From assembly GCA_030651035.1 (NCBI GenBank), contig JAUSCK010000296.1, positions 1 to 33,801 on the forward strand: 33,801 bases of DNA. Reading direction: 5' to 3'. Position numbers and translations under genes: made by a program. The number at the start of each line of letters is the position of its first letter. The first letter of the stretch is position 1. The notes below the pieces were generated by a model. The model saw only the letters and a program-made list of their open reading frames with translations, was not told where the DNA came from and did no database searches. This document shows, piece after piece, positions 4,521 through 19,732 of the stretch. This DNA comes from Elusimicrobiota bacterium (GTDB lineage: Bacteria > Elusimicrobiota > Elusimicrobia > Elusimicrobiales > UBA9959).

Positions 4521-4946
4521 TTATTTTTCAGTGGCGTTCAATTGTATTTCAAGACCTTTGCTGATGAAGTTCACGCGGTCCCGGCGCGCCCCTTTCAGGT
4601 CGCCCCTGCGCGGGACTCCCAGCTGCCCGTGGGTGTTGAGGAGCGCCTCAAGGTGGATCCTGCGCGACAGCAGGTCCGGCATTATCAGGCTGGAGGAGGT
4701 CATCTCGAATCTGGCCGGGAAAACCGGGTTTATAATCTTTTTTACCGCCACCGGCACCCCGTCTTCGTTCCTGGCCACGATAAAAAGCATGCCGTTGGCT
4801 CCCGGCAGGCCGGGGATCAGCCCGGGGGCCACGCTGATGGTCCCCGATATCCTGAAAAAATATTTAAGCGCGACGGGGTAGCCGAAGCGCCAGGCCAGGA
4901 AGCCGGCCGCCGCCAATAAAACCAGCCACAGGAATTTCTTAAGCAT
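4521..4946 (-). CDS. membrane-anchored protein with a CcmH/CycH (CcmI) C-terminal-like domain
   Basis: The 141-residue product begins with one N-terminal hydrophobic helix (residues 4-22), either an anchor or a signal, followed by a periplasmic domain. The domain starts with GTISVAPGL and contains GMLFIVARN, VPVAVKKI, FPARFEMTSSSLIMP and GVPRRGDLKG. This order resembles the C-terminal domain of the cytochrome c maturation protein CcmI/CycH, in which a beta-rich domain carries VFVFAR, PLAVKR, DDSMAMMPG-like and PGDL motifs. Here the TPR part that precedes it in CcmI is absent, and there are no other ccm genes nearby. The match is by recalled motif order, not by a search. It is convergent with the preceding gene, 5 bases apart. 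A weak promoter may lie within 4950-4980. Confidence 0.7.
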   Translation of the reverse strand: MLKKFLWLVLLAAAGFLAWRFGYPVALKYFFRISGTISVAPGLIPGLPGANGMLFIVARNEDGVPVAVKKIINPVFPARFEMTSSSLIMPDLLSRRIHLEALLNTHGQLGVPRRGDLKGARRDRVNFISKGLEIQLNATEK

Positions 4947-5057: not shown

Positions 5058-5492
5058 TCAAGTCGGACGTCTCAGGATATTGTTGCGGACTTGCTTTGCC
5101 AGGTCATTTGCGCTTGCGCGCCGCAAAAGCACTCCTATGCGGGCCTTAAGCTCTTCAACGGCGAACGGCTTCGTGAGATAATCGTCGGCGCCGACGTTAA
5201 GCCCAAGTACCTTGTCGGTCACGGCTCCCCTGCCCGTCAGCATCAATATCGGCACGGAGCGCAGCCTGGGGTCGTTCCGCACCTTTACGCACAGCTCCAC
5301 GCTGTCTCCGTCGGGTAATTCGCGGTCGAGCAGGATCAAATCGGGGCGGTGGGTTTCAAGCAGCTTGTATGCTTCTTTCAGCGTGGGAGCGGAAAGCAAA
5401 ACGGTGGTTTCATCCGAAAGGACATCGTGCAATAATTGCTGTATATCGGGGTCGTCCTCCACCGATAATATTTTGCGTTTAATAGGTTCCAT
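5058..5492 (-). CDS. stand-alone response regulator receiver (CheY-like)
   Basis: This is a receiver domain of two-component signalling with no DNA-binding or enzymatic output domain. The acidic pair Asp13-Asp14, phospho-acceptor Asp56 in LILLDRELPDGD, Thr86 in ILMLTGRG and Lys108 in YLTKPF are all present, so it should be phosphorylatable. A basic tail of about 25 residues follows the domain. GAGGGG at 5498-5503 is the ribosome binding site. No histidine kinase is encoded in the window, so its partner is elsewhere. It is divergent from the Cys-containing hypothetical, and the two share a promoter region. Confidence 0.92.
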   Translation of the reverse strand: MEPIKRKILSVEDDPDIQQLLHDVLSDETTVLLSAPTLKEAYKLLETHRPDLILLDRELPDGDSVELCVKVRNDPRLRSVPILMLTGRGAVTDKVLGLNVGADDYLTKPFAVEELKARIGVLLRRASANDLAKQVRNNILRRPT

Positions 5493-5657: not shown

Positions 5658-6386
5658 ATGACCGCTGTCCGCGACGAAAAACCGTTTATAATACGCTATA
5701 GCTTCAGGTTCGATGACGGCGCGCGGAAAGTATTTGAAGTGCGTCTGGACCCGAAGACCCTCACCGCCCCGGCCGCGTCCGGGCCACTGCCCGACTGGGT
5801 GCGTCTGGAACACCTGCGGTGCGAGGGCTGCCTGCTCGATCCCGCGGCGCACCAGTATTGCCCGGTGGCCGCGAATGTCGCCGGGATCGTTTCCGCTTTT
5901 CAGGATATCATTTCGGTCACCATGGCCGAGGTGACGGTGGAAATGGACGAAAGGACCATTTCAAAGCGGGTCGTCGTTCAAAACGGCCTTTCGTCGCTTA
6001 TGGGGATCTACATGGTGGTCAGCGGCTGTCCGACCATGGAAAAGCTGAAGCCGATGGTGCGGGTCCATCTGCCGTTCGCCACCTCCGATGAAACGGTCTA
6101 CCGGGTCATGACCATGTACCTGGGGGCGCAGTACTTCCGCATGAAAAAGGGGCTGGCGCCCGACTGGGAACTGCGGCAGCTTAATGAGCTGTATGAGCGG
6201 GTGAAAGAAGTGAACCTCGGATTTTCGGCCAGGCTCCAGAAGGCCGCCAAAGAGGATTCCCTCAGGAACTCCATCTGCCATCTTGATGTGTTCGCGACCT
6301 TCCTGCAGATGGGCGCCCTGAAGAAGGTGGACTCCCTGGAGTACCTGTTCGCTCCATATCTAGATTGTGAAAAGGGAGCGGTTTGA
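5658..6386 (+). CDS. conserved-looking hypothetical with clustered cysteines
   Basis: The 242-residue soluble protein has an N-terminal beta-rich part (YSFRFDDGARKVFEVRLDP, residues 14-32) and then a cysteine cluster, Cys55-x2-Cys58 and Cys68 in the PAAHQYCPVA stretch, with Cys124 in the VVSGCP segment. These could bind a metal. The C-terminal half is mainly helical. Its pattern suggests a conserved family of unknown function that I have seen in other bacteria but cannot name. AAAGG at 5644-5648 is a plausible ribosome binding site. A weak hairpin (CCGGG-CAT-CCCGG, 6424-6436) follows the gene. Its divergent pairing with a receiver-only regulator hints at a signalling role, which is inference only. 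Confidence 0.8.
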   Translation: MTAVRDEKPFIIRYSFRFDDGARKVFEVRLDPKTLTAPAASGPLPDWVRLEHLRCEGCLLDPAAHQYCPVAANVAGIVSAFQDIISVTMAEVTVEMDERTISKRVVVQNGLSSLMGIYMVVSGCPTMEKLKPMVRVHLPFATSDETVYRVMTMYLGAQYFRMKKGLAPDWELRQLNELYERVKEVNLGFSARLQKAAKEDSLRNSICHLDVFATFLQMGALKKVDSLEYLFAPYLDCEKGAV

Positions 6387-6548
6387 GAATATCCGCCTTT
6401 AAAAGTCCGATTTAAGCCTGAGCCCGGGCATCCCGGCCCGCCGCCTTCATTTTAGTCCTTCACAGCTTTCCCTGCCTTTTGCGGCCGCCGCCGCTATAAG
6501 CGGTCCTTTATGACACAATCTGTTAATAATCATTCAATATTCCTTTTA

Positions 6549-6577
6549 TTGACTTAGAGGGGGGTGTGTATTAAACT
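6549..6577 (+). promoter_or_regulatory. Candidate sigma-70-type promoter for the coiled-coil operon
   Basis: TTGACT (6549-6554, 5 of 6 matches to the -35 consensus) is followed after exactly 17 bases by TAAACT (6572-6577, 4 of 6 to the -10 consensus). The spacer contains a run of six G (6559-6564). The region around it is unusually A+T-rich for this window. AAAGGG at 6593-6598 serves as the ribosome binding site for the ATG at 6605. Confidence 0.55.
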
Positions 6578-6604
6578 TGATATAGAGTATTTAAAGGGAA
6601 AACT

Positions 6605-9600
6605 ATGGCAAACGAATACGGCGAAATCGAACAGATGGTCAATGACGTCACAAGCCTGGACACCGCGCGCATGACGCTGCGCTGGGCGCTGGAAAGGCTG
6701 AACTCCATTGAAAAAGAAAAGGCCGACCTCAAAAAAAACCTGACTCTCGCCGAAGAAACTTCAAAGCGGCTGCAGCTCAAGGAAGCCACCCTTACGGACG
6801 CCTACACCTCGCGCTCCAAGACCCTTGAGGAGAAAGAAGATTTTTACACCAAGCTGGAAGCCACGATGTCCCTGCTGGGCGAGGGCAAGCTGGATATTCA
6901 GCAGCTGCTGAAAAAAGAGGCCAAGCTGGACAGCCTGCGGCACAGCCTAGAGAGCGAATACTCGGATAAATTTGAGGAGCTGGACCGCAACCAGCGCTCC
7001 GTGATAGAGCGCTGGAACTCGCGGCTTCTTGACGTGGAAAGCCAGTACGCCGGCCGCCTGGCCGGGGCCCAGAAGAAATATGACGGGCTGCGCTCGGAGC
7101 TGGAGGGCGACTACCAGGGACGCATGACCGCGCTCCAGGCATCCTTCAGGTCGCGGGAGAAAGAACTCTCTGAAAGAATAGGCGGGCTCGAGGGCAGCGT
7201 GCGCCAGTCCGAGGAGAAGGTGGAGGCGCGCCGCCGCGAGCTGGAGAGCGAGTACCTCGCCAAAAAACGCGAGACGGAGGAAAGTTACCGCAAGCTTAAG
7301 AACATGCTGGAAACCGGCCTTGAGGAGAAGATCCGGTCCATGGACTGCGACCACCAGGAGCAGATAAGCTCCTTTGAGGCCTCCTGGCAGATCGAGCGGG
7401 CCAGGCTTCTTGAGGAGCAGCGCGTGCGCGAGGACCAGTTCTCGGCCGCGCAGTCCCGCATAAAATCGATAGAGAACACGCTGGCGGCCCAGCAGGAGAT
7501 CCATCATTCAGAGCTTTTAAAGATCATCTCGGAGAAAGAAACGGCTTTCAGGGCCCAGTTGGTCCAGCTGGAAAATGAAAAGGACTCCAAAGAGGCGACG
7601 GTGAGGGAACTTCAGGCCAGGCTGGAAAAAAAGGCCGACGTCTGGGAGGCCGACCGCTCAAGGCTGCAGACCGAATTCGACGGGCGGCTGAACTCCATAG
7701 AGGCAGGCCTGCGGGAGCGCGCCGCCTCGCTTGAGACGGAGTATTCCGCGAAAAAAGCGGAGGCCGAGAAAACGATAGCTGCCAGCCGCGAGGAGTTCAG
7801 GAAAGAATTCGACGCGCAGCTCCTGACGGAGCGCCAGGCCATGGACGCCGAGAGATCCCGCCTGGAGTGGGAAAAGCGCGAGCGCGAAGAGGCGCTTGCA
7901 CTTAACACCGTAAGGCTTATAGAGCTTGAAAACGCTCTCGCGGTCACCCGCGAAGAGCATCACAAGGACCTGATGGAGCGCATCCGCACCGGGGAAGCCT
8001 CCTTCCGGGAAAAGCTGGCCGGCTTTGAATCGGAAAAACAGGCCTATAATGAAACAATAAATAACCTTACCGACCAGCTGCGCCGCAGCGAAGCCTCCCT
8101 GCTGGAGGAAAAGAACCTGATCGCCGCGGAGTTCGAGGCCAAGTCCGCCATACACAGCGAGATGCTCGCCAGGACAGAGGCGTCCTTCGACGAGAAGCGC
8201 CGCGCCTACGAGGAGAGGATCACCGCGCTGGCCGCAGGGGTGGCGGAGGCCGCCAAGGCTTCCGCCCTGGAGAAGGAAAATTTCAGGAACGAGCTCGCAC
8301 GCGTTTCCTCCGCCGTGCAGGCGATGGCCGACGAGCGGACCGCCGCCATCCGCGCCGACTACGGGAGCCGCAAAGCGGCCCTGGAAAAAGAGTTCGATCA
8401 GCGCGTAGAGCACAGTGTCGCGGTGCGCACCGCGCGGCTGCTTGAGGTGCTGGAACTGGCGAAAGCCAAGAACGCGGAGCTTGAGGGGATGACGGAGGAG
8501 CGGGTGGCCGCCGTCCGTACACAGTACGAGGAACGCAAGGCGGGGCTTGAGAGGGAATTCGAGACCAAATTCTCCGACCGGATGAAAACCCTTGAGTTCG
8601 AGAAAAACCGCGCGAAAGAAATGGTGGCCGCAACGCAGGACAAGATTGCCGAGATCAAAAAAGAATGCGAGACCGAGAAGAACTCGCTTATGACCGCCTA
8701 CGGCGAGAAATTCGCCTTCATGGAGCAGGAGCTTGTAAAGATCCACGCCGACGGCAAGGAAGAACTGGCCATGACGCGCGAGAACGCTTTGAGGGAAAAG
8801 GAGAGCCTCCAGGAGGCGATGGGTGAGCGCGAGCGCGCCTTTGAAGAGCGCCTTGCAGCCGCGCAGCTGAAGATGCAGCAATTAAAGGAGGAGTACGAGG
8901 CTGAGAGAAACTCGCTTATGTCCTCTTACGGCGAGAAACTGACTTTCATGGAGCAGGAGCTTGTAAAGGCACAGACCGACAATAAGGAAGAACTGGCCAT
9001 AATGGAGGAGGCTGCTTTAAGGGAAAGGGAGCATCTGCTGCAGGAAAAGGCCGATTATGAAAAAAAGCTGGCCCTGATGTGGGAAACCGCCATCGCGGAG
9101 AAAAGGGAAGTCGAGGCCAGGGCAAGAAAAACCGTGGCCGCTGAAAAAGCCCTCGCCGACGAGCGGTTCGCCGCGGCCATGGACGCGTTAGAAGCCGAGA
9201 AAAACTCGCTTGTTTCCTCTTACAGCGAGAAACTGGCTTTCATGGAGCAGGAGCTTATAAAGACACAGACCGACAGCAAGGAAGAACTGGCTATAATGGA
9301 GGAGAAAGCTTTAAGGGAAAGGGAGCGCCTGCTGCAGGAAAAGGCCGATTATGAAAAAAAGCTGGCCCTGATGTGGGAAACCGCCATCGCGGAGAAAAGG
9401 GAAGTCGAGGCCAGGGGAAGGAAAACAGTGGCCGCCGAAATAGCCCTCGCCGACGAGCGGTTCACTGCGGCCAGGGAAGCGTATGAAGCCGAGAAAAACC
9501 TGCTTATTTCCGCTTACGGCGAGAAACTGGTTTTCATGGAGCAGGAGCTTATAAGGACACAGACCGACAGCAAGGAAGAACTGGCGATAACACAGGAGAG

Positions 9601-10393
9601 CGCTATGAGGGAGAAAGAGCGCCTGCTGGAGGAAAACGCCGACTATGAAAAAAAGCTGGCCTCGCAGTGGGAAACCGCCATCGCGGAGAGAAGGGACCTC
9701 GAGGCCAGGGTGAGGAAAGTAGTGGCCGCCGAAAAAGCCTCCGCCGACGAGCGGTTTGCCGCGGCCAAGGAGGCGTACGAGGCCGAGAGAAACTCGCTAG
9801 TTACCGCTTACGGCGAGAAAATGACTTTCATGGAACAGGAGCTTATAAAGACGCAGATCGACCGCAAGGAAGAACTGGCGATGCTCCAAGAGAGCGCTTT
9901 AAGGGAAAAGGAGCGCCTGCTGGAGGAGGTGGACTCCCGCTCCCGGTATGTTGAAGGCGCGGAGCTGAAGATACAGGAGCTTGAGCAGGAAATGATGAAA
10001 TACCGCCAGGCCGCCTCCGGAGAGCTGCTGAAGAATATCTCCGAGCAGGACAGCCGCTTCCGCGAGATGGCGGCCGAGGAAAAAGCCCGCAGCGAAGCCA
10101 GCGTCAGGCGGCTGGAAAACCTGCTGTCCGCCAAGGAAAAGCTGCTGGCCGAAGGCGACAGCTTCTACCGGCAGAAGCAGCAGGAACTGGACGGATTGCA
10201 TGCCGAGCTTAATATGCGCGAGAGCAAGTTCAACGAAGAGCTCTTCGCGCAGAAGCAGGCGCTGAGCGACAAGGAAAAGGCGCTTAACGACTACCGGCTT
10301 AAGCTGGAAAAAGATTACGCCTATAAAGACACCGAGCTGGAGCAGATGAAGGCGGAGCTTACCCGCGCCATCATGGACTACAGGAAGAAATAA
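6605..10393 (+). CDS. giant coiled-coil protein with 98-residue tandem repeats
   Basis: The 1262-residue product is almost entirely Glu, Lys, Ala, Arg, Gln and Leu in heptad-like order, with almost no Pro or Cys, and should form a very long parallel coiled coil. It has no signal peptide, membrane helix or ATPase motif, so it is not an SMC or Rad50 protein. Residues 691-1108 hold tandem repeats, each with an FMEQEL core (Met at 706, 782, 880, 978 and 1076). The full units carry a lone Trp at 826, 924 and 1022. Older, diverged repeats can be seen near residues 289 and 441 (IENTLA and LENALA, 152 apart). The next gene starts 2 bases after the stop. A cytoskeletal or scaffold role is inferred, as no family is recognised. 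Minus-strand frames inside the gene are composition artefacts. Confidence 0.9.
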   Translation: MANEYGEIEQMVNDVTSLDTARMTLRWALERLNSIEKEKADLKKNLTLAEETSKRLQLKEATLTDAYTSRSKTLEEKEDFYTKLEATMSLLGEGKLDIQQLLKKEAKLDSLRHSLESEYSDKFEELDRNQRSVIERWNSRLLDVESQYAGRLAGAQKKYDGLRSELEGDYQGRMTALQASFRSREKELSERIGGLEGSVRQSEEKVEARRRELESEYLAKKRETEESYRKLKNMLETGLEEKIRSMDCDHQEQISSFEASWQIERARLLEEQRVREDQFSAAQSRIKSIENTLAAQQEIHHSELLKIISEKETAFRAQLVQLENEKDSKEATVRELQARLEKKADVWEADRSRLQTEFDGRLNSIEAGLRERAASLETEYSAKKAEAEKTIAASREEFRKEFDAQLLTERQAMDAERSRLEWEKREREEALALNTVRLIELENALAVTREEHHKDLMERIRTGEASFREKLAGFESEKQAYNETINNLTDQLRRSEASLLEEKNLIAAEFEAKSAIHSEMLARTEASFDEKRRAYEERITALAAGVAEAAKASALEKENFRNELARVSSAVQAMADERTAAIRADYGSRKAALEKEFDQRVEHSVAVRTARLLEVLELAKAKNAELEGMTEERVAAVRTQYEERKAGLEREFETKFSDRMKTLEFEKNRAKEMVAATQDKIAEIKKECETEKNSLMTAYGEKFAFMEQELVKIHADGKEELAMTRENALREKESLQEAMGERERAFEERLAAAQLKMQQLKEEYEAERNSLMSSYGEKLTFMEQELVKAQTDNKEELAIMEEAALREREHLLQEKADYEKKLALMWETAIAEKREVEARARKTVAAEKALADERFAAAMDALEAEKNSLVSSYSEKLAFMEQELIKTQTDSKEELAIMEEKALRERERLLQEKADYEKKLALMWETAIAEKREVEARGRKTVAAEIALADERFTAAREAYEAEKNLLISAYGEKLVFMEQELIRTQTDSKEELAITQESAMREKERLLEENADYEKKLASQWETAIAERRDLEARVRKVVAAEKASADERFAAAKEAYEAERNSLVTAYGEKMTFMEQELIKTQIDRKEELAMLQESALREKERLLEEVDSRSRYVEGAELKIQELEQEMMKYRQAASGELLKNISEQDSRFREMAAEEKARSEASVRRLENLLSAKEKLLAEGDSFYRQKQQELDGLHAELNMRESKFNEELFAQKQALSDKEKALNDYRLKLEKDYAYKDTELEQMKAELTRAIMDYRKK
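8675..9928 (+). repeat. In-frame tandem repeat array, period 294 bp
   Basis: The ATG of the FMEQEL core recurs at 8720, 8948, 9242, 9536 and 9830: one step of 228 bases and then three of exactly 294. Units start at 8675 (short, 76 codons), 8903, 9197, 9491 (98 codons each) and 9785 (partial, 48 codons). The second and third units are identical over 88 bases (9035-9122 against 9329-9416). Because 98 is 14 times 7, gain or loss of a unit keeps both the reading frame and the heptad phase. Confidence 0.92.
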
Positions 10394-10395
10394 CT

Positions 10396-11178
10396 ATGGA
10401 AAAAGAACGCGCCATACAATGCGTGCCGGTGGAACTGCTGGAAAAACTGAAAACGCTGGCGGCAAGGCTCTGGGAAGACAGGAACCCGGCCTCCGTACAC
10501 CTCAACGCCATCCTGGATGAGTTCGAGCCGGACGTCAGGACGCTGGGCAATGTAATAACGGAATACGAGGCCGATCATTCCGGGCGCCTGGCCTTCGCCC
10601 AAAGCGAGTACGCGCAGAAAGAAAGCCTGCTTAAGAAAGTGATAGAGGACCTTAAGGGGCGGATGGCCGGGATCGAAGCCTCCCGGGCCGAGGCCGTCAA
10701 GAAGAACGTGGAGCTGAGGTCGGAGTTCAACGCGCGGGAGGAGCTGCTCGCCGAGCTGAAGTCCAAAAACGCGGAGCATGAAAGCGTGGTAAACGCGAGA
10801 TTTTCAACGAGGATGGAGGAGCTTTACATCAAGGTCAATAATAAAGAGATGGAAATCCTGGCCCAGTGGGAAGAGAAAAACAAGGCCCTGGAAACAAAGG
10901 CGCAGGAGCTTAACGGCAAGGTTGATAAAAAAGAGCGGGAAATACTGGCCCGGTGGGAAGAGAAAAACAAGGTCTTCTCGGCGAGGGCGCAGGAGCTTGA
11001 GAGCAATTACGCCGCAACAGGCAGGCAGCTGAAGCTGCGCGAGAGGGCCCTGGAGGAAGATTATAACGCCCGGAAGGCCGAGCTTATAAGAACCTTCGAC
11101 CGGATACGCGCCGGCCTGGAAGCCAAGGAAAAAGAGCTTTCCGCGCGCGAAGCGGGGCAGGCGGGCGGTGCTTTATGA
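10396..11178 (+). CDS. coiled-coil protein, partner of the giant coiled-coil protein
   Basis: The 260-residue protein has a non-coiled N-terminal part (about residues 1-55, containing RAIQCVPVELLEKLKTLAAR and a short Pro- and Asp-bearing stretch) followed by a continuous coiled coil to the end. An internal duplication of 29 residues is seen: EILAQWEEKNKALETKAQEL and EILARWEEKNKVFSARAQEL (from 10852 and 10939). The Trp-centred core resembles the LALMWETAIAEKR motif of the preceding protein, so the two may be paralogous in part or may co-assemble. The start lies 2 bases after the upstream stop, and its own stop overlaps the next start as ATGA (11175-11178). No known family is recognised. Confidence 0.85.
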   Translation: MEKERAIQCVPVELLEKLKTLAARLWEDRNPASVHLNAILDEFEPDVRTLGNVITEYEADHSGRLAFAQSEYAQKESLLKKVIEDLKGRMAGIEASRAEAVKKNVELRSEFNAREELLAELKSKNAEHESVVNARFSTRMEELYIKVNNKEMEILAQWEEKNKALETKAQELNGKVDKKEREILARWEEKNKVFSARAQELESNYAATGRQLKLRERALEEDYNARKAELIRTFDRIRAGLEAKEKELSAREAGQAGGAL

Positions 11179-11798
11179 GCGACACCAGGGAACTTAAGGA
11201 TTTGCTGGACAGGCTTAAGGGCGAGGTCGGCCCCCTGCCGCAGGCACAGCCGGAACGGGGCTGGGGCGAAGCGGCGCAATTCGGCGAACAGCCGCCCGCC
11301 GCCGCTCCGGCGCAGCAGGCGCTTCGGTCCGCGGCAGGCAGGACGGACCGCTATGCCGCCAGGCCCTACAGGGCGCAGGAACAGCCGGCGTCTTCGGGCG
11401 GGCCGGAGAACCTGGTCTGGAGCGAGAACAAGGAGAGCATGCTTTTCGGCATGCTGGCCTCGCTGACAGCCGCGCTGGGGGGCATCCTGGCCGGCCTTGA
11501 CTACCTGGTGCTTACCGGGGCCGTGTTCTTTTCGTTTTTTTCCATGGTAACGCTGCTGGCGCTTTTCCGTTTCAGCCTGAATTCCAGGCGGGCCGTCGTA
11601 GAAGCCGCGGGCCTGGCCGACCGCGTAGACGCGCTGTCAAGAAAAGTCGAGATGCTGAGCTCCAGGGCCGCTTCGGGAGACGGGGTTTCGGTTTCAGCCG
11701 CCAGCCCCGACAGGGAGCGCGAACTGGAGCAGAAGGTGGAGGAGCTCCGTGTTCTGGTGAAAACCCTGGCCAAGGCCGTGAACGGAGGAGATAAGTGA
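11175..11798 (+). CDS. two-TM membrane protein with coiled-coil tail
   Basis: This 207-residue protein has a soluble N-terminus with a short helix (SDTRELKDLLDRLKGEVG) and a disordered Ala/Pro/Gln-rich linker to about residue 80. Two hydrophobic segments follow, about residues 90-108 and 112-133, with a very short turn, so both ends probably face the cytoplasm. The C-terminal region (about 138-205) has heptads (LADRVDALSRKVEML and LEQKVEELRVLVKTLAKAV) broken by a Ser/Ala linker. It is coupled to the coiled-coil gene before it by an ATGA overlap, so it is a natural candidate for the membrane anchor of that scaffold. That role is inferred from context alone. Confidence 0.82.
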   Translation: MSDTRELKDLLDRLKGEVGPLPQAQPERGWGEAAQFGEQPPAAAPAQQALRSAAGRTDRYAARPYRAQEQPASSGGPENLVWSENKESMLFGMLASLTAALGGILAGLDYLVLTGAVFFSFFSMVTLLALFRFSLNSRRAVVEAAGLADRVDALSRKVEMLSSRAASGDGVSVSAASPDRERELEQKVEELRVLVKTLAKAVNGGDK

Positions 11799-11831: not shown

Positions 11832-12515
11832 ATGAAAATATCGTCCATAGCCCTGTCGATCCTGACCTTTTTCAGCTCCATGCCGGCCTTCAGCCTGGAC
11901 CTCGGGGCGCTGGGCAAGGAATATTTTATTGAAGCCGGGGACGTGATAAGCATCAATGTCCAGCCGGCGGAGGAATTCTCAAAGGAAGTGACGGTGCAGC
12001 CCGACGGAACTATCGAGATACCGCTGCTGGGCTCGATGAAGGCGCAGGGCATCAAGCCCGACGACCTGCAGAAAATACTGACGGCCAAGTTTTCCAAGTA
12101 CGTCTCGAACCCCTCCATCACGCTGAGCGTGCGCAAGTTCTCCTCAAGCCGCGTGGCGGTGATAGGCGAGATACGCCAGCCCGGCTATTTTGAATACCGG
12201 GAAGGCATGCGCCTGCTGGACCTGGTGGCGCAGGCCGGCGGTACCGCCGATTACGCCCGCAGGGACAGGGTGCGGATCTTCAGGCGCGTTAAAGGGGTTA
12301 ACGACAAGGTTTCCGAAGAGGTTATAAATGCCGACCTTGAGGACGTGTTCGCGGGTATAATGGAAAAAAATATCCTGCTGGCCAGCGGCGACATCGTTTA
12401 TATCCCGCGCAAGGGCTATTCCACGGGCGCCAAGTGGATTTCCGATAATTTTACCCCCTGGATCACTCTTTTCACCTTCGTGGTAACGGCCAGCATAGTG
12501 GCGAGGAAAAACTAG
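11832..12515 (+). CDS. polysaccharide export protein, Wza-like (Poly_export + SLBB)
   Basis: The protein should form the outer-membrane or periplasmic channel that exports the finished polysaccharide. A signal peptide is visible at residues 1-21 (ISSIALSILTFFSSMPAFS). The Poly_export domain begins at YFIEAGDVISINV with VTVQPDGTIEIPLLG. An SLBB domain follows (about 108-165: VAVIGEIRQPGYFEYREGMRLLDLVAQAGG). The C-terminal helix FTPWITLFTFVVTASIV (about 205-223) may be the membrane-spanning helix used by Wza. At 227 residues it is much shorter than E. coli Wza, with one SLBB domain instead of two and no lipobox Cys. The Wzc-like gene starts 4 bases after its stop. Confidence 0.92.
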   Translation: MKISSIALSILTFFSSMPAFSLDLGALGKEYFIEAGDVISINVQPAEEFSKEVTVQPDGTIEIPLLGSMKAQGIKPDDLQKILTAKFSKYVSNPSITLSVRKFSSSRVAVIGEIRQPGYFEYREGMRLLDLVAQAGGTADYARRDRVRIFRRVKGVNDKVSEEVINADLEDVFAGIMEKNILLASGDIVYIPRKGYSTGAKWISDNFTPWITLFTFVVTASIVARKN

Positions 12516-12519
12516 GGCC

Positions 12520-14376
12520 ATGAACGCCGATCTCACGCTCTACGATTACTGGCGCATAGTGAACCGCCGCAAGTGGATAGCCCTGCTGATCTTCTCGGTA
12601 ACTGTTTTTTCCACCCTGTTCTACACGCGCCTGCAGCCCACCGTATACCGCAGCCAGGCCCTTATTAAAATAAAGCCGCCGGTCTCTTATTCCCGGATCG
12701 CCGGCTCGGTCGCCGAGGAGTTCGACCCCTGGAGCGCCGTGGCCACCGAGCTGAAGGTGATAACCTCCTCGGAGATCTCCGAGCGCGCCGCGGCCAAGCT
12801 GGGCATGCCGTCGGGTGCGAAGTCGGCTTCCGAGATAGCCGGGTCTTACAAGGTGGAGCGCCTGACGGAATCCAACCTCATCGCCATCTCCGCCTACAGC
12901 TCCGACCCGGTGAGGGCCGCCGACATCGTATTGGCCGTAATAGCGGCCTACCGCGACTTCGACCTGGAGCAGAAGAGCATGCAGGCCAGGAAGACCCTGG
13001 CTGACATCTCCGCGCGCAAGGACGAGGTTGAGGACAACCTGCGCACGCTGGAGAGGCGGAAGCAGAATTTCGTAGAGAAGAATCCCAAGACCGGGCTCGG
13101 CGCGGCGCTGGCCAACCAGCTGGCCGACCTGGAGATAAAGAAAAGAGAACTGCTTCAGAAGTACACCCCGAACCACCCCGACATACTCAACCTCAACCAG
13201 CGCATAGATGTTGTGGAGAGCAAACTTGAGGAGATCCCCGCGCAGGAGGTTACGCTGGCCCGGATAAGCCGCGAACTGCGCATGCAGGAGGACCTGTACA
13301 CCACGCTCAACAAGCAGCACGAGGAGGCCAAGCTGGGCGTCTCGTCGATGGTTTCTTTTGTCAGCGTGGTAAACCGGCCCGTGCCGGAAAGCGCCCCCAT
13401 ATCGCCGAACCGCAAGCTCAATATGATGGTGGGCGCGGTGCTCGGCCTGTTCATAGCCGTAATGGTGGTTTTCCTGCTGGAGAACCTGGACGTTTCCATT
13501 TCCACTATTGAGGATATTGAGGATTTTATGAAGCTGCCGGTGCTGGGGATCATCCCCAACATCCTCAGCGAAAAGCACCTGGACAACTGGCTTACGCAGG
13601 TGTTCAAGAAGGAGCGCTACACCGTGGACGCTTTCCGCAGCGTGCTGATAGTGAACAAGAACTACTCCTCCGGCGTGATAGAGTCCTACCATACCCTGCG
13701 CACCAATATCATGTCCCACCTGAACACCAAGGAGAGCGTGTCGCTGGTGATCAGCTCGGCCGGAGCGGCAGAAGGCAAGACCCTCACCGCGGTCAATTCA
13801 GCGCTGGCCAGCGCGCATTCAGGGCTTAAGACGCTGCTGGTGGACGCCGATCTGCGGCGGCCCGCCATAAACGATATTTTCGGCACGAAGAAAGCGCCGG
13901 GCCTCAGCGACGTGCTGGCCGGCAAGGCTGATTGGCGCGAAGCCGTGCTTGAAAGCGCGGACTTTATAATGGGCGGACTGGATTTTGACCAGCTGATGCG
14001 CTTTTCGGGCATTGAAAACCTCAAGGTGCTCAACTGCGGCACCCAGCCGGAAAACGTAGTGGACGTCCTTAATTCCGCCAACTGGCGGGACCTGATGGAA
14101 GACCTGAAGAGCGAGTTCGATCTTATAATCTTCGACGCACCGCCGGTGCTGCTCTTCGTGGACGCGCTGGTGATAGCCAAGCACGCCTCCGACGGCGTGG
14201 TGCTGGTTTATAAGGCCGGCAAGATAGCGCGCGGCGCCCTCAAGCGCGCGGGCGACCAGATATCCGGCGCGAACGCCCGCATGCTGGGGGTGGTGCTTAA
14301 CGGGGTGCGCGCCTCCGAGATGGGCCCGCAGTACGGCTACTATTACAAAGATTACAAGAACTACGCGCACCGCTAG
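12520..14376 (+). CDS. Wzc-like chain-length determinant with tyrosine kinase domain
   Basis: This 618-residue inner-membrane protein couples a Wzz-type polysaccharide co-polymerase to a bacterial tyrosine kinase. TM1 lies near residues 16-36 and TM2 near 300-322, with a periplasmic coiled-coil region between them that ends in the Pro-rich segment VNRPVPESAPISPN. The kinase has Walker A SAGAAEGKT with Lys420, Walker A' LLVDADLRRP with Asp442 and Asp444, and Walker B LIIFDAPP with Asp539. The tail carries six tyrosines (605, 607, 608, 609, 612, 615), the usual autophosphorylation cluster. Phosphorylation state would control polymer length and export with the Wza-like protein just upstream. Domain order and length are typical of the family. 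Confidence 0.95.
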   Translation: MNADLTLYDYWRIVNRRKWIALLIFSVTVFSTLFYTRLQPTVYRSQALIKIKPPVSYSRIAGSVAEEFDPWSAVATELKVITSSEISERAAAKLGMPSGAKSASEIAGSYKVERLTESNLIAISAYSSDPVRAADIVLAVIAAYRDFDLEQKSMQARKTLADISARKDEVEDNLRTLERRKQNFVEKNPKTGLGAALANQLADLEIKKRELLQKYTPNHPDILNLNQRIDVVESKLEEIPAQEVTLARISRELRMQEDLYTTLNKQHEEAKLGVSSMVSFVSVVNRPVPESAPISPNRKLNMMVGAVLGLFIAVMVVFLLENLDVSISTIEDIEDFMKLPVLGIIPNILSEKHLDNWLTQVFKKERYTVDAFRSVLIVNKNYSSGVIESYHTLRTNIMSHLNTKESVSLVISSAGAAEGKTLTAVNSALASAHSGLKTLLVDADLRRPAINDIFGTKKAPGLSDVLAGKADWREAVLESADFIMGGLDFDQLMRFSGIENLKVLNCGTQPENVVDVLNSANWRDLMEDLKSEFDLIIFDAPPVLLFVDALVIAKHASDGVVLVYKAGKIARGALKRAGDQISGANARMLGVVLNGVRASEMGPQYGYYYKDYKNYAHR

Positions 14377-14382
14377 GTTTTC

Positions 14383-15768
14383 ATGCCCATAATAATAGTC
14401 ATTGCAGCCCTTGCCGCCGCGGGTTGGCTGGGCTTCATGGCCGCCGCCGGGGCGCAATACTCCATTGTGTTGGTGCTGGGCTCCGCCATGGTGGCCCTGT
14501 TTGCTTTTTTCTCTCCCAAACTAAGCCTTCTCCTCCTGGTTTTTTCCATGCTGCTGTCTCCGGAAATAAATCTCGCGGGGCTGGCGGGCAGCGGCCGGAA
14601 CATTGTGCTGCGCTACGACGACATTCTGCTGATGATCATCTTCCTTTCCTGGCTGGCCAAGACGGCCATTATCAAGGGCAAGCCGCTGGTTTTCCGTTCC
14701 CCGGTGCAGAACCCGATATTGCTCTATACGGCGGTCTGCGTCCTGTCCACGGCCTTCGGCGTGATGGGAGGAAGGATAAAGTGGGAGATCGCTGTTTTCT
14801 ATCTCTTGAAATACGTCGAATATTTCCTCCTGTATTTCATGGCTTTCAATCTCATCGAGAGCAAGGAAGAGGTTCGCCGGTATCTGAAGGCCGGGGCCAT
14901 AGTCGCCGCGCTGGTGACGGTTTACGCGGTCTGGTATTATTTCAGCGCCGGCCCGGGCGCCAGGGCTTCTACCCCGTTCGAGGCCCCGCTGGGAAATCCC
15001 GAAGAATCTGAACCCGCTTCGCTCGGGGGGTATTACCTGATCGTGTTCGGCCTGATCTTCGGGGCCGTTTCTGAAATGCCTTTCAAGACTTTTGTCTGGT
15101 CCTTTGCGGCAATGGGAGCAATGCTGCCGGCTTTCATACTCACGCTTTCGAGGTCCTCCTATATAGGACTGGCATTTTCAGGCGCGGCCGCCATTTTCCT
15201 TTCCAGGCAAAGACGGCTTTTCCTGGTAATCGTTGCCGCGCTCGGGGTGCTTGCTGTATCGCTTTCGCCTTTTCTCTCGGAACGGGCCAGGGGCCGGGTA
15301 CAGGAAACCTACACCGGCAGCCAGGCTGCGACGATTTTTAAGACACCTGTGGGCGAGATCAGGCTGGAAGAATCCGCCGCGCAGCGGGTGCAGTCCTGGA
15401 TGAGGAGCGTTACTTACTGGCTGCCTAAGAACGTGTTGATAGGCAATGGCGTAACCGGTTGCGGCCTCGTGGACGCACAGCTGCCGCTTGTTATAGGCGA
15501 AACGGGGGTTATAGGCACGCTCTTCTGGCTCTGGATGATAGCCGTATGTTTTAAGGTTTCCTGGCGGCTTTACCGCGCCAGCGCGGACCCCTTCGTGCGC
15601 TCCATCTCCCTCGGCTACGTGGTCGGGCTGATCGGCCTGCTCTGGCAATCGGTGGGAGTTAATACTTTCATCATCGTGCGCATCATGGAGCCTTTCTGGT
15701 TCCTTACCGCTATTGTAATGAAGCTGTCCCAACTGGAGGAAAAAAGTGGAAAAACCTCCCCAGCTTGA
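14383..15768 (+). CDS. O-antigen ligase / polymerase family membrane protein
   Basis: The 461-residue protein has about 10-12 hydrophobic segments and one longer periplasmic stretch after LSERARGRVQETY, as in the O-antigen ligase (WaaL) and Wzy polymerase family. The SRSSYIGLAFSGAAAIF segment resembles the conserved Wzy_C region. It would either polymerise repeat units or attach the glycan to its acceptor; sequence alone does not tell these apart, though its place directly after the Wzc-like gene favours polymerase. It starts 6 bases after the upstream stop, with no obvious Shine-Dalgarno site. It overlaps the next gene by 23 bases. Confidence 0.88.
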   Translation: MPIIIVIAALAAAGWLGFMAAAGAQYSIVLVLGSAMVALFAFFSPKLSLLLLVFSMLLSPEINLAGLAGSGRNIVLRYDDILLMIIFLSWLAKTAIIKGKPLVFRSPVQNPILLYTAVCVLSTAFGVMGGRIKWEIAVFYLLKYVEYFLLYFMAFNLIESKEEVRRYLKAGAIVAALVTVYAVWYYFSAGPGARASTPFEAPLGNPEESEPASLGGYYLIVFGLIFGAVSEMPFKTFVWSFAAMGAMLPAFILTLSRSSYIGLAFSGAAAIFLSRQRRLFLVIVAALGVLAVSLSPFLSERARGRVQETYTGSQAATIFKTPVGEIRLEESAAQRVQSWMRSVTYWLPKNVLIGNGVTGCGLVDAQLPLVIGETGVIGTLFWLWMIAVCFKVSWRLYRASADPFVRSISLGYVVGLIGLLWQSVGVNTFIIVRIMEPFWFLTAIVMKLSQLEEKSGKTSPA

Positions 15769-18271: not shown

Positions 18272-19732
18272 ATGGGCAACTCCTTTAAACTAAAAACTTT
18301 TGAGAATGTCGGCTATAACGCTTTCGGCCGGGTTATTGCCATGGCGTTCCAGTTCGCCGCCAATATCGTCCTGGCCCGGAACCTGGCTTCTTCCGACTAC
18401 GGCATAGCCGGGTTCGCGATGATCTTTGCCGATTTCTTTACGCGCTTCGGGGATATGGGGATACAAGCCGCCGTTATCAAAGAGCGGGAGCTCGACGAAA
18501 AAGGGCTTTATACCGGGTTTGTCATCAAAGCCGCGCTCGGGATCGCCGTTTTCGCGGCAGCCCTGGTCTTTTCTCCGTCGGCGGGAAAGTTGTTCGGCAA
18601 CCCCGCAGTAGTGAACGTGGTTAAATTCCTGGCGCTGAACTTCGTGATAAACAGCTTTGTTTTCCTGCCCAGCGTCCTTTTAACCAGGGAGCTTGATTAC
18701 AGGAAGCTGCTGCTCCCCCAGACCGCTTCTGTAGTGGCTAACTCCGTTATTTCCATACTCCTGGCCCGCGCGGGATACGGCTATTGGAGCATTATCCTCG
18801 CCAATGTGGCGTCTACGGCCATTTTCGCGGTCATAATTAATATTGTAAGGCCTGTAAAAATGCGCTTCCTTTACGACAGGGAGCGGGCGGACGGTTTCAT
18901 CAATTTCGGGGGGAATATTTTTGTTTCCGGACTGATAGTCTTCCTGATATTTAACGTGGATAATTTCGCGATAGGAGTGTTAAAAGGGGCCGACGCGCTG
19001 GGGCATTATTCAGTGGCTTTCAACTGGGGGACCATGATCGGCGGTATGGTCGGCCTGGTTATACTGAGCGTGCTTTTCCCGACTTTTTCCAGGTTCCAGG
19101 AGGACAGGTTGCGCCTGAAGAATGCCTATTTGCGCGTGCTGGAATATGTGGGTTTTTTCGGCATACTGTGCAATTCCGGACTGTTCATGGTATCTAAAGA
19201 GTTCCTGTTCCTGGTGCTGGGCCGCGATACGGGGAAATGGCTGCCCGCGCTGACTTCGCTCAGGATACTTTGTTTCTACGGGATGATCCGGCTCCTCTTT
19301 GAACCGGTGGGAAGCGTGATACTGGCGATGGGTAAGTCGGGAGCGCTGCTCAGGGTGCAGGTGATAGTGGCGGCGGTGGAGCTTCTCCTTCTTTATCCGG
19401 CTTTAAGGTTTTTCGGCATAGAGGGGGTAGCGGCCGCGGTAACGCTGGCATATGCGGTCTCATTCTTCGCGCTGTTCCCGCTGCTTAAGCGGGAATTAAA
19501 GCTCAGCGCGGCGCAATGGGCCGCCCCGGTAGTGCCGGCCATATTCTCAGCCCTTGTCGCCGCCGCGCTGCTGGGCTCCGCCGGGAAATATTTCCCTTTT
19601 TCCCTATACAGCCTCGCGGGAAAGATAATTATTTTTACCGGAGTATACTGCTTAGTGTACGGAGTTGCAACTAAATGGAAGATGGCCGGAGAATTAAAAG
19701 AGATAGCGGCCGAGTTCAGGCGCGGCAGGTAA
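18272..19732 (+). CDS. Wzx-type polysaccharide flippase
   Basis: The 486-residue protein has about 12-14 hydrophobic helices and the layout of the polysaccharide transporter group in the MOP superfamily. Its N-terminal NVGYNAFGRVIAMAFQF, the NIVLARNLASSDYGIAGFAM stretch and the central INFGGNIFVSGLIVFL with NVDNFAIGVLKGADALGHY are typical. It should move the lipid-linked repeat unit across the inner membrane to the polymerase and Wzc-like protein. It is the last + strand gene of this block and converges with a minus-strand gene 19 bases away, with no clear terminator in between. Confidence 0.92.
   Translation: MGNSFKLKTFENVGYNAFGRVIAMAFQFAANIVLARNLASSDYGIAGFAMIFADFFTRFGDMGIQAAVIKERELDEKGLYTGFVIKAALGIAVFAAALVFSPSAGKLFGNPAVVNVVKFLALNFVINSFVFLPSVLLTRELDYRKLLLPQTASVVANSVISILLARAGYGYWSIILANVASTAIFAVIINIVRPVKMRFLYDRERADGFINFGGNIFVSGLIVFLIFNVDNFAIGVLKGADALGHYSVAFNWGTMIGGMVGLVILSVLFPTFSRFQEDRLRLKNAYLRVLEYVGFFGILCNSGLFMVSKEFLFLVLGRDTGKWLPALTSLRILCFYGMIRLLFEPVGSVILAMGKSGALLRVQVIVAAVELLLLYPALRFFGIEGVAAAVTLAYAVSFFALFPLLKRELKLSAAQWAAPVVPAIFSALVAAALLGSAGKYFPFSLYSLAGKIIIFTGVYCLVYGVATKWKMAGELKEIAAEFRRGR

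Follow-up and report, generated by a model that had tools for sequence, protein, structure and literature searches.

The stretch of DNA analysed here, referred to as the window (33,801 nucleotides, contig JAUSCK010000296.1 of an Elusimicrobiota bacterium), carries three consecutive genes, called A, B and C below, that lead directly into genes for polysaccharide export:

6605..10393, + strand: gene A, a coiled-coil rod protein of 1262 aa, one copy in the genome
10396..11178, + strand: gene B, a coiled-coil protein of 260 aa
11175..11798, + strand: gene C, a membrane anchor of 207 aa
11832..12515, + strand: Wza-like OPX export protein gene, Pfam PF02563 (Poly_export) and PF10531 (SLBB)
12520..14376, + strand: Wzc-like co-polymerase / tyrosine autokinase, GNVR (Pfam), TIGR01007 over cut-off (NCBIfam)
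14383-15768: O-antigen-ligase-like gene (wzyC), weak match (Pfam/NCBIfam)
18272-19732: flippase gene, Pfam/NCBIfam match

The genes are tightly packed, with 2 bases between A and B, an ATGA overlap (-4) between B and C, and 33 bases from C to the Wza-like gene; the reading frames, lengths and spacings (+2, -4) given in the initial annotation, and the run into wza, are all as it described them. Conserved counterparts of A, B and C exist in related genomes, so none of them is a chance open reading frame, and the -4 overlap is kept in nearly all of those relatives. The Poly_export and SLBB domains of one partner, next to the GNVR domain and autokinase of the other and accompanied by ligase-like and flippase genes, identify the partner machine as a Wza/Wzc exporter of the Wzx/Wzy-dependent type. 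Its Wzc has a tyrosine-rich C-terminus, YGYYYKDYKNY. The Wza-like protein (11832-12515), of only 227 aa, closes with a hydrophobic helix where E. coli Wza has its long C-terminus.

On the other side of A, positions 4521-4946 hold a gene, oriented divergently from A, for a small protein that has a CycH Ig-like domain and a membrane anchor; this gene adjoins A in almost every locus, including loci without B, C and wza. A DUF6901 gene (5658-6386) sits between a receiver gene (5058-5492) and A, and none of the relatives examined has a labelled match to it in its syntenic stretch. Stand-alone short receiver proteins like that at 5058-5492 are also encoded near A modules at L086, L159, L160, L162, L165, L201, L206 and L208, a recurrence not compared with chance.

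Nothing over cut-off was found for A, B or C in Pfam or NCBIfam, and nothing convincing in sequence searches of the PDB or in Foldseek fold searches. A phmmer search of A against all PDB chains, intermediate-filament-like members included, gave no match at E 0.001. The models of the A head and of C had no PDB match in a fold search, as expected of models that are lone helices. PADLOC returned weak coiled-coil matches, at 18-22 bits, to B alone. The initial statement that no known family is visible therefore stands, no member having a clear match to a known unrelated family in these searches. Several named systems were considered and rejected. The PADLOC matches of B to Zorya ZorA and JetC cover only internal stretches of those profiles, and B has no Pfam domain. 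For bactofilins, Pfam matches none of A, B and C over cut-off, and the A head and C models are all-helical; the N-terminal domain of DivIVA is not matched over the Pfam cut-off; and A lacks the ATPase domain of SMC or Rad50 proteins (Pfam, NCBIfam). Membership of the AglZ/FrzS group was set aside because A has no Response_reg match (Pfam), the receiver gene at 5058-5492 being separate and not fused. A literature search found no paper on the A, B or C proteins, and the three families appear to be undescribed.

The description of A and B as coiled coils has been borne out. In A, the spacing of hydrophobic residues shows an excess at lags 4, 7, 11, 14 and 18 (z 2.7 to 7.5 by lag autocorrelation) and a deficit at lags 1, 2 and 5; this pattern is shared by B and by relatives from other families and is absent from globular neighbours. 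(A first test, of hydropathy power in 42-residue windows, did not separate A from globular proteins; lag autocorrelation did.) The heptad/hendecad periodicity of A and B is real. There is no proline in the 1262 residues of A, and its E-to-K/R i+4 pairs are not in excess, which argues against a single-helix rod. Three parts of A can be told apart:

6605..7129, + strand: A head, residues 1-175 (alignment A1)
8810..9634, + strand: near-tandem 98-residue (14-heptad) repeats in the A rod, residues about 736-1010
10325..10384, + strand: A tail motif KDTELEQMKAELTRAIMDYR, residues 1241-1260, predicted B-docking segment

The head, with 87% mean column identity (alignment A1, 28 sequences), is most strongly conserved in DVTSLDTARMTLRWALERL and EATMSLLGEGKLDIQQLLKKEAK. 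AF2 models it as one long helix with a pLDDT of 86, the AF2 output in this study consisting of single-chain helices with low pTM. Three same-genus comparisons put identity to relatives at about 90% for the head and about 20% along the rod, with a recovery to 65-75% over the last 160 residues. The rod aligns with itself at 76% identity at an offset of 98 across 260 residues (an offset of 196 scores too), and full-length A proteins run from about 730 to 2960 residues across the family. Such a pattern of conservation and length fits an adjustable-length spacer between two binding ends.

The initial annotation placed a single candidate promoter ahead of the three genes. Its pattern, TTGACT-17-TAAACT at 6549-6577, matches at 9 of 12 positions and is no better than chance; what holds of the proposal is its place, inside a block conserved within the genus:

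6519..6584, + strand: conserved block upstream of A, probable promoter/operator, direct repeats CTGTTAA-N4-CATTCAA

Conservation of the block is strong in the genus and extends partly beyond it, and with up to three mismatches allowed (<=3) the block has a single match in its own genome. It resembles an operator of the OmpR/PhoB type, its two direct repeats being 7 bases each with a PhoB-site-like spacing. No link to a regulon was found for the block. A Pho-box reading gained nothing from the stretches read at two phosphate-binding-protein loci, which contain no convincing site, or from loose matches elsewhere in the genome, which are at control level; it is kept as a lead only. At four loci (L068, L080, L096 and L138) an additional hairpin-rich leader, about 45 bases long, separates the conserved block from the start of A. 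An RNA element in the A leader was considered and dropped: there was no Rfam match in the loci searched, and the insert is absent from the window.

Of 31 same-genus genomes, 29 contain the first 165 residues of A (78-95% identity), and most contain B and C at about 40-65%. Profile searches of 295 genomes of the phylum, a sample of 90 genera, detected the A head in 89 genomes from 35 of those genera, spread over the class, B in 42 genomes from 16 genera, and C in 32 genomes from 10 genera, nearly all of one family. A-head matches below about 1e-9 are counted as specific, judged by frame length and alignment span; those around E 1e-4, in frames of 1000-1200 residues, were set aside as probable generic coiled-coil proteins. 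Nearly every uncut locus in the genus reads prs - L25 - pth - (small opposite-strand gene) - A - B - C - wza - wzc - wzyC. The three-gene order beside wza and wzc, for which the initial annotation proposed a search of related genomes, is maintained within the genus and also in further genera of the family. Departures from it are instructive. In the genome G011 A is complete, tail included, but the genes behind it encode a receiver protein and unrelated products, with no B or C and no Wza or Wzc, and in G022 and G003 A is shortened to 277 and 329 residues at a locus without B, C and wza.

B is found only in genomes that also carry A (16 genera), and its conserved part is the head, CVPVELLERLKALAARLW..NPASVHLNAILEEF. 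A tail motif built from the A tails of the family was scored at A C-termini elsewhere. It is present in every complete A that has a B neighbour and in 1 of about 21 that have none; outside the family the counts are 10 of 10 A proteins with B and 0 without B, fused A proteins included. The full table of tail against B reads 35/3/0/20, with L201, L209 and G011 as its three exceptions, and in L201 and L209 a B-like gene is present that the gap rule had overlooked. The covariation can be followed inside a single genus (g12), where L211, with B, has the tail and L132 and L134, without B, lack it. Since the tail tracks the presence of B in independent families, the last 20 or so residues of A are predicted to dock B; that the A tail binds B is the simplest reading of this correlative covariation. 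A search for the A tail motif inside B tails was not significant, save for one borderline case (L208). At L068:7393-9858 an extra coiled-coil protein of 821 aa is encoded between C and Wza; its head is B-like, and it is also similar to the A rod.

C consists of an N-terminal helix, a disordered linker, a transmembrane hairpin and a coiled-coil tail:

11175..11228, + strand: C N-terminal helix motif DLKxLLDRLKxEV, residues 1-18 (alignment A2; AF2 helix 3-17)
11436..11573, + strand: C transmembrane hairpin, residues about 88-133 (hydropathy; AF2 helix 80-166)
11706..11786, + strand: C coiled-coil tail, residues 178-204 (AF2 helix, pLDDT >90 over most)

Hydropathy places the two transmembrane helices at residues about 88-106 and 111-133, and AF2 gives a disordered stretch around residues 27-79; hydropathy and model together agree with the first description of C as a protein with two transmembrane helices and a coiled-coil tail. 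By the positive-inside rule, the arginines behind the second transmembrane helix would put the C tail in the cytoplasm. A DLKxLLDRLKxEV-like start is shared, at a similar position, by three C-like hairpin proteins from other lineages (nominal P 0.01-0.02 each), and the motif may, on this weak evidence, be a docking peptide for A; in propeller-type anchors the motif was not significant.

Rearranged modules elsewhere in the phylum bear on the claim that the set is membrane-attached. At L153-L157, L203 and L204, which belong to distant families, A is one polypeptide made up of head, coiled coil, linker, one transmembrane helix and an extracytoplasmic domain. That domain, called propeller-like from its repeat pattern (Pfam gave no name for it), is homologous to the third gene of the separate A-B-anchor modules L196 and L201 (E down to 6e-22) and, more weakly, to the anchors in L159 and L165. 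G121 (L205) encodes a protein of 177 residues in which the B head is fused to the transmembrane hairpin of C. In another genus (L212, L213), A is followed by a different anchor with a DLKELI N-terminus, two transmembrane helices and a long coiled coil. The fusions of A to a transmembrane helix point to a coiled coil anchored in the inner membrane, its head lying on the cytoplasmic side, and together with the C hairpin and the fusion of B to C they uphold membrane attachment.

The link to the exporter can be followed first within the family. Among 46 family genomes scored, taking a Wzc at least 55% identical as orthologous, 29 carry C together with Wzc and 17 carry neither; because G026, counted among the 17, preserves part of a Wzc where its contig stops, it is left out, which gives 29 with both and 16 with neither. 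Both states occur inside six genera, which implies several separate changes, with the caveat that a single deletion can remove adjacent genes. B agrees with the presence or absence of Wzc throughout the family, except in G091 and one contig-cut genome. This perfect pairing of C with Wzc is also what would be seen if A, B and C regulated Wzc itself, as activator, substrate or chain-length control, and did not place it; the cytosolic ends of C would adjoin the Wzc kinase domain, and the Wzc of the window has both that domain and the tyrosine-rich C-terminus. However, a regulator needs no freely length-varying rod of 700-3000 residues with head and tail kept, and the module is found without Wzc in several lineages. 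We regard this explanation as unlikely.

A itself is retained in ten family genomes without orthologous Wzc, so the exporter does not simply carry A along. The full-length A of G011 without B, C or exporter, and the pairing of A with another anchor at L212 and L213, point to a role of A beyond the exporter. The retention of A in those ten genomes, with its occurrence in 35 of 90 genera, its pairing with different anchors and its place downstream of the housekeeping genes prs-L25-pth, would suit a general cell-shape or envelope cytoskeleton of the Elusimicrobia, intermediate-filament-like, whose adjacency to wza and wzc reflects shared regulation or convenience. Against it stand the truncation of A in G022 and G003, where B, C and Wzc have been lost, and the repeated occurrence of A next to Wzc, in different orders, in distant families; we consider it quite unlikely. 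Outside the family, 10 of 39 A-head loci (counted at E below 1e-10) lie within 8 kb of a Wzc-like gene, where random placement would give 0.11. Six loci of family f8 have the order Wza-Wzc-A, L196 reads A-B-propeller anchor-B-X-Wzc, L197 and L198 have convergent A genes adjoining Wzc, and L199, with a weaker head match, reads A-C'-Wza-Wzc. This recurrent adjacency is the strongest evidence for a functional association. In family f7 many A-B pairs have no Wzc nearby. The initial proposal that the set serves the export machine thus gains from the co-loss and from the recurrent adjacency in distant families, and must allow for the several lineages in which A, sometimes with B, lacks Wza and Wzc. 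The scaffold is a broader Elusimicrobia module, often but not always tied to polysaccharide export. A family f7 genome encodes, at L197:7961-8770, an ATPase that looks ExeA-like in sequence, between Wzc and two A-head genes.

In family f8, L153, L154, L156 and L215 share a conserved set in which Wza, Wzc and the propeller-type A are followed by a CBM48-like transmembrane protein and a very large Kelch-like surface protein. Distant modules, in which the rod is connected to propeller-like extracytoplasmic domains, to proteins of Kelch-like and CBM48-like type and to stand-alone receivers, could be read as components of an apparatus for surface motility or adhesion (extruding slime or a stalk, coupled to sensors), with a role like that of AglZ-type gliding systems. 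Yet neither a motor nor a GTPase was seen adjoining the modules and A has no receiver domain, so that we hold a motility or adhesion role to be highly improbable.

On balance, and with modest confidence, we favour a membrane-tethered cytoplasmic coiled-coil scaffold, made of A, B and C, that works with the downstream Wza/Wzc export machine. Its observed basis is the gene order, the co-inheritance and co-loss with Wzc, the periodicity, the transmembrane anchor, the fusions and the covariation of A tail and B. A would be the long rod, whose head is nearly invariant, whose tail peptide is conserved and whose length depends on expandable repeats; B would be a shorter second coiled coil docking on the A tail; and C would be a hairpin in the inner membrane, its two ends cytoplasmic, binding A and tying the assembly to the membrane. 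The scaffold may self-assemble and form filaments. It would hold or cluster Wzc and Wza along the inner membrane, and might thereby decide where, or in what array, polymer exits the cell. More tentatively, as a possibility we would not put at even chances, A, B and C may amount to a cytoskeleton under the inner membrane specific to the phylum Elusimicrobiota, with an adjustable rod, a tail-bound B and interchangeable anchors (the C hairpin, the propeller-like anchor or an anchor fused to A), arraying Wza/Wzc. If so, it would be a kind of cytoskeleton for positioning exporters of which no relative has been described.

How exporters of the Wzx/Wzy type come to be placed in the cell is largely an open question. 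In A, B and C there is now a defined gene set that is repeatedly associated with Wza/Wzc in distant families; its residues of particular interest are the last 20 of A, the N-terminal helix of C and the head of B. It also puts a name to a conserved, hitherto unannotated protein family in a phylum of which very few members are in culture.

Coiled-coil scaffolds are in themselves already known. AglZ and FrzS of Myxococcus are long cytoplasmic coiled coils tied to surface behaviour, with a receiver-like domain at the start, whereas A starts with a helical DTARMTLRWAL head matching no receiver. We know of no counterpart of A, B or C in the E. coli export machine, and of no earlier instance of A, B and C combined with Wza/Wzc. 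The partner genes of the window are ordinary members of the same kind as the E. coli-type Wza-Wzc machine (PMC12881504). Crescentin, FilP and Scy (PMC2680258, PMC6224456) have in common with the present set that they are enzyme-less coiled-coil rods with conserved ends and variable length. A is likewise a rod with head and tail and no enzyme domain (periodicity z up to 7.5, no Pfam domain); its sequence relation to any solved chain is undetectable and, unlike theirs, its set has a dedicated membrane anchor and an exporter operon. A likeness in function is seen in the cortical belt of Gluconacetobacter, proposed to line up cellulose synthase complexes under the export sites, its protein component being unidentified in that work (PMC7811197). 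The likeness would lie in a cytoplasmic structure by the inner membrane that holds polysaccharide synthase complexes in line; the difference is that the belt serves cellulose synthase and has no gene assigned, whereas the window has a Wzx/Wzy-Wza-Wzc system. The belt is a precedent not for the proteins A, B and C but for the idea of positioning.
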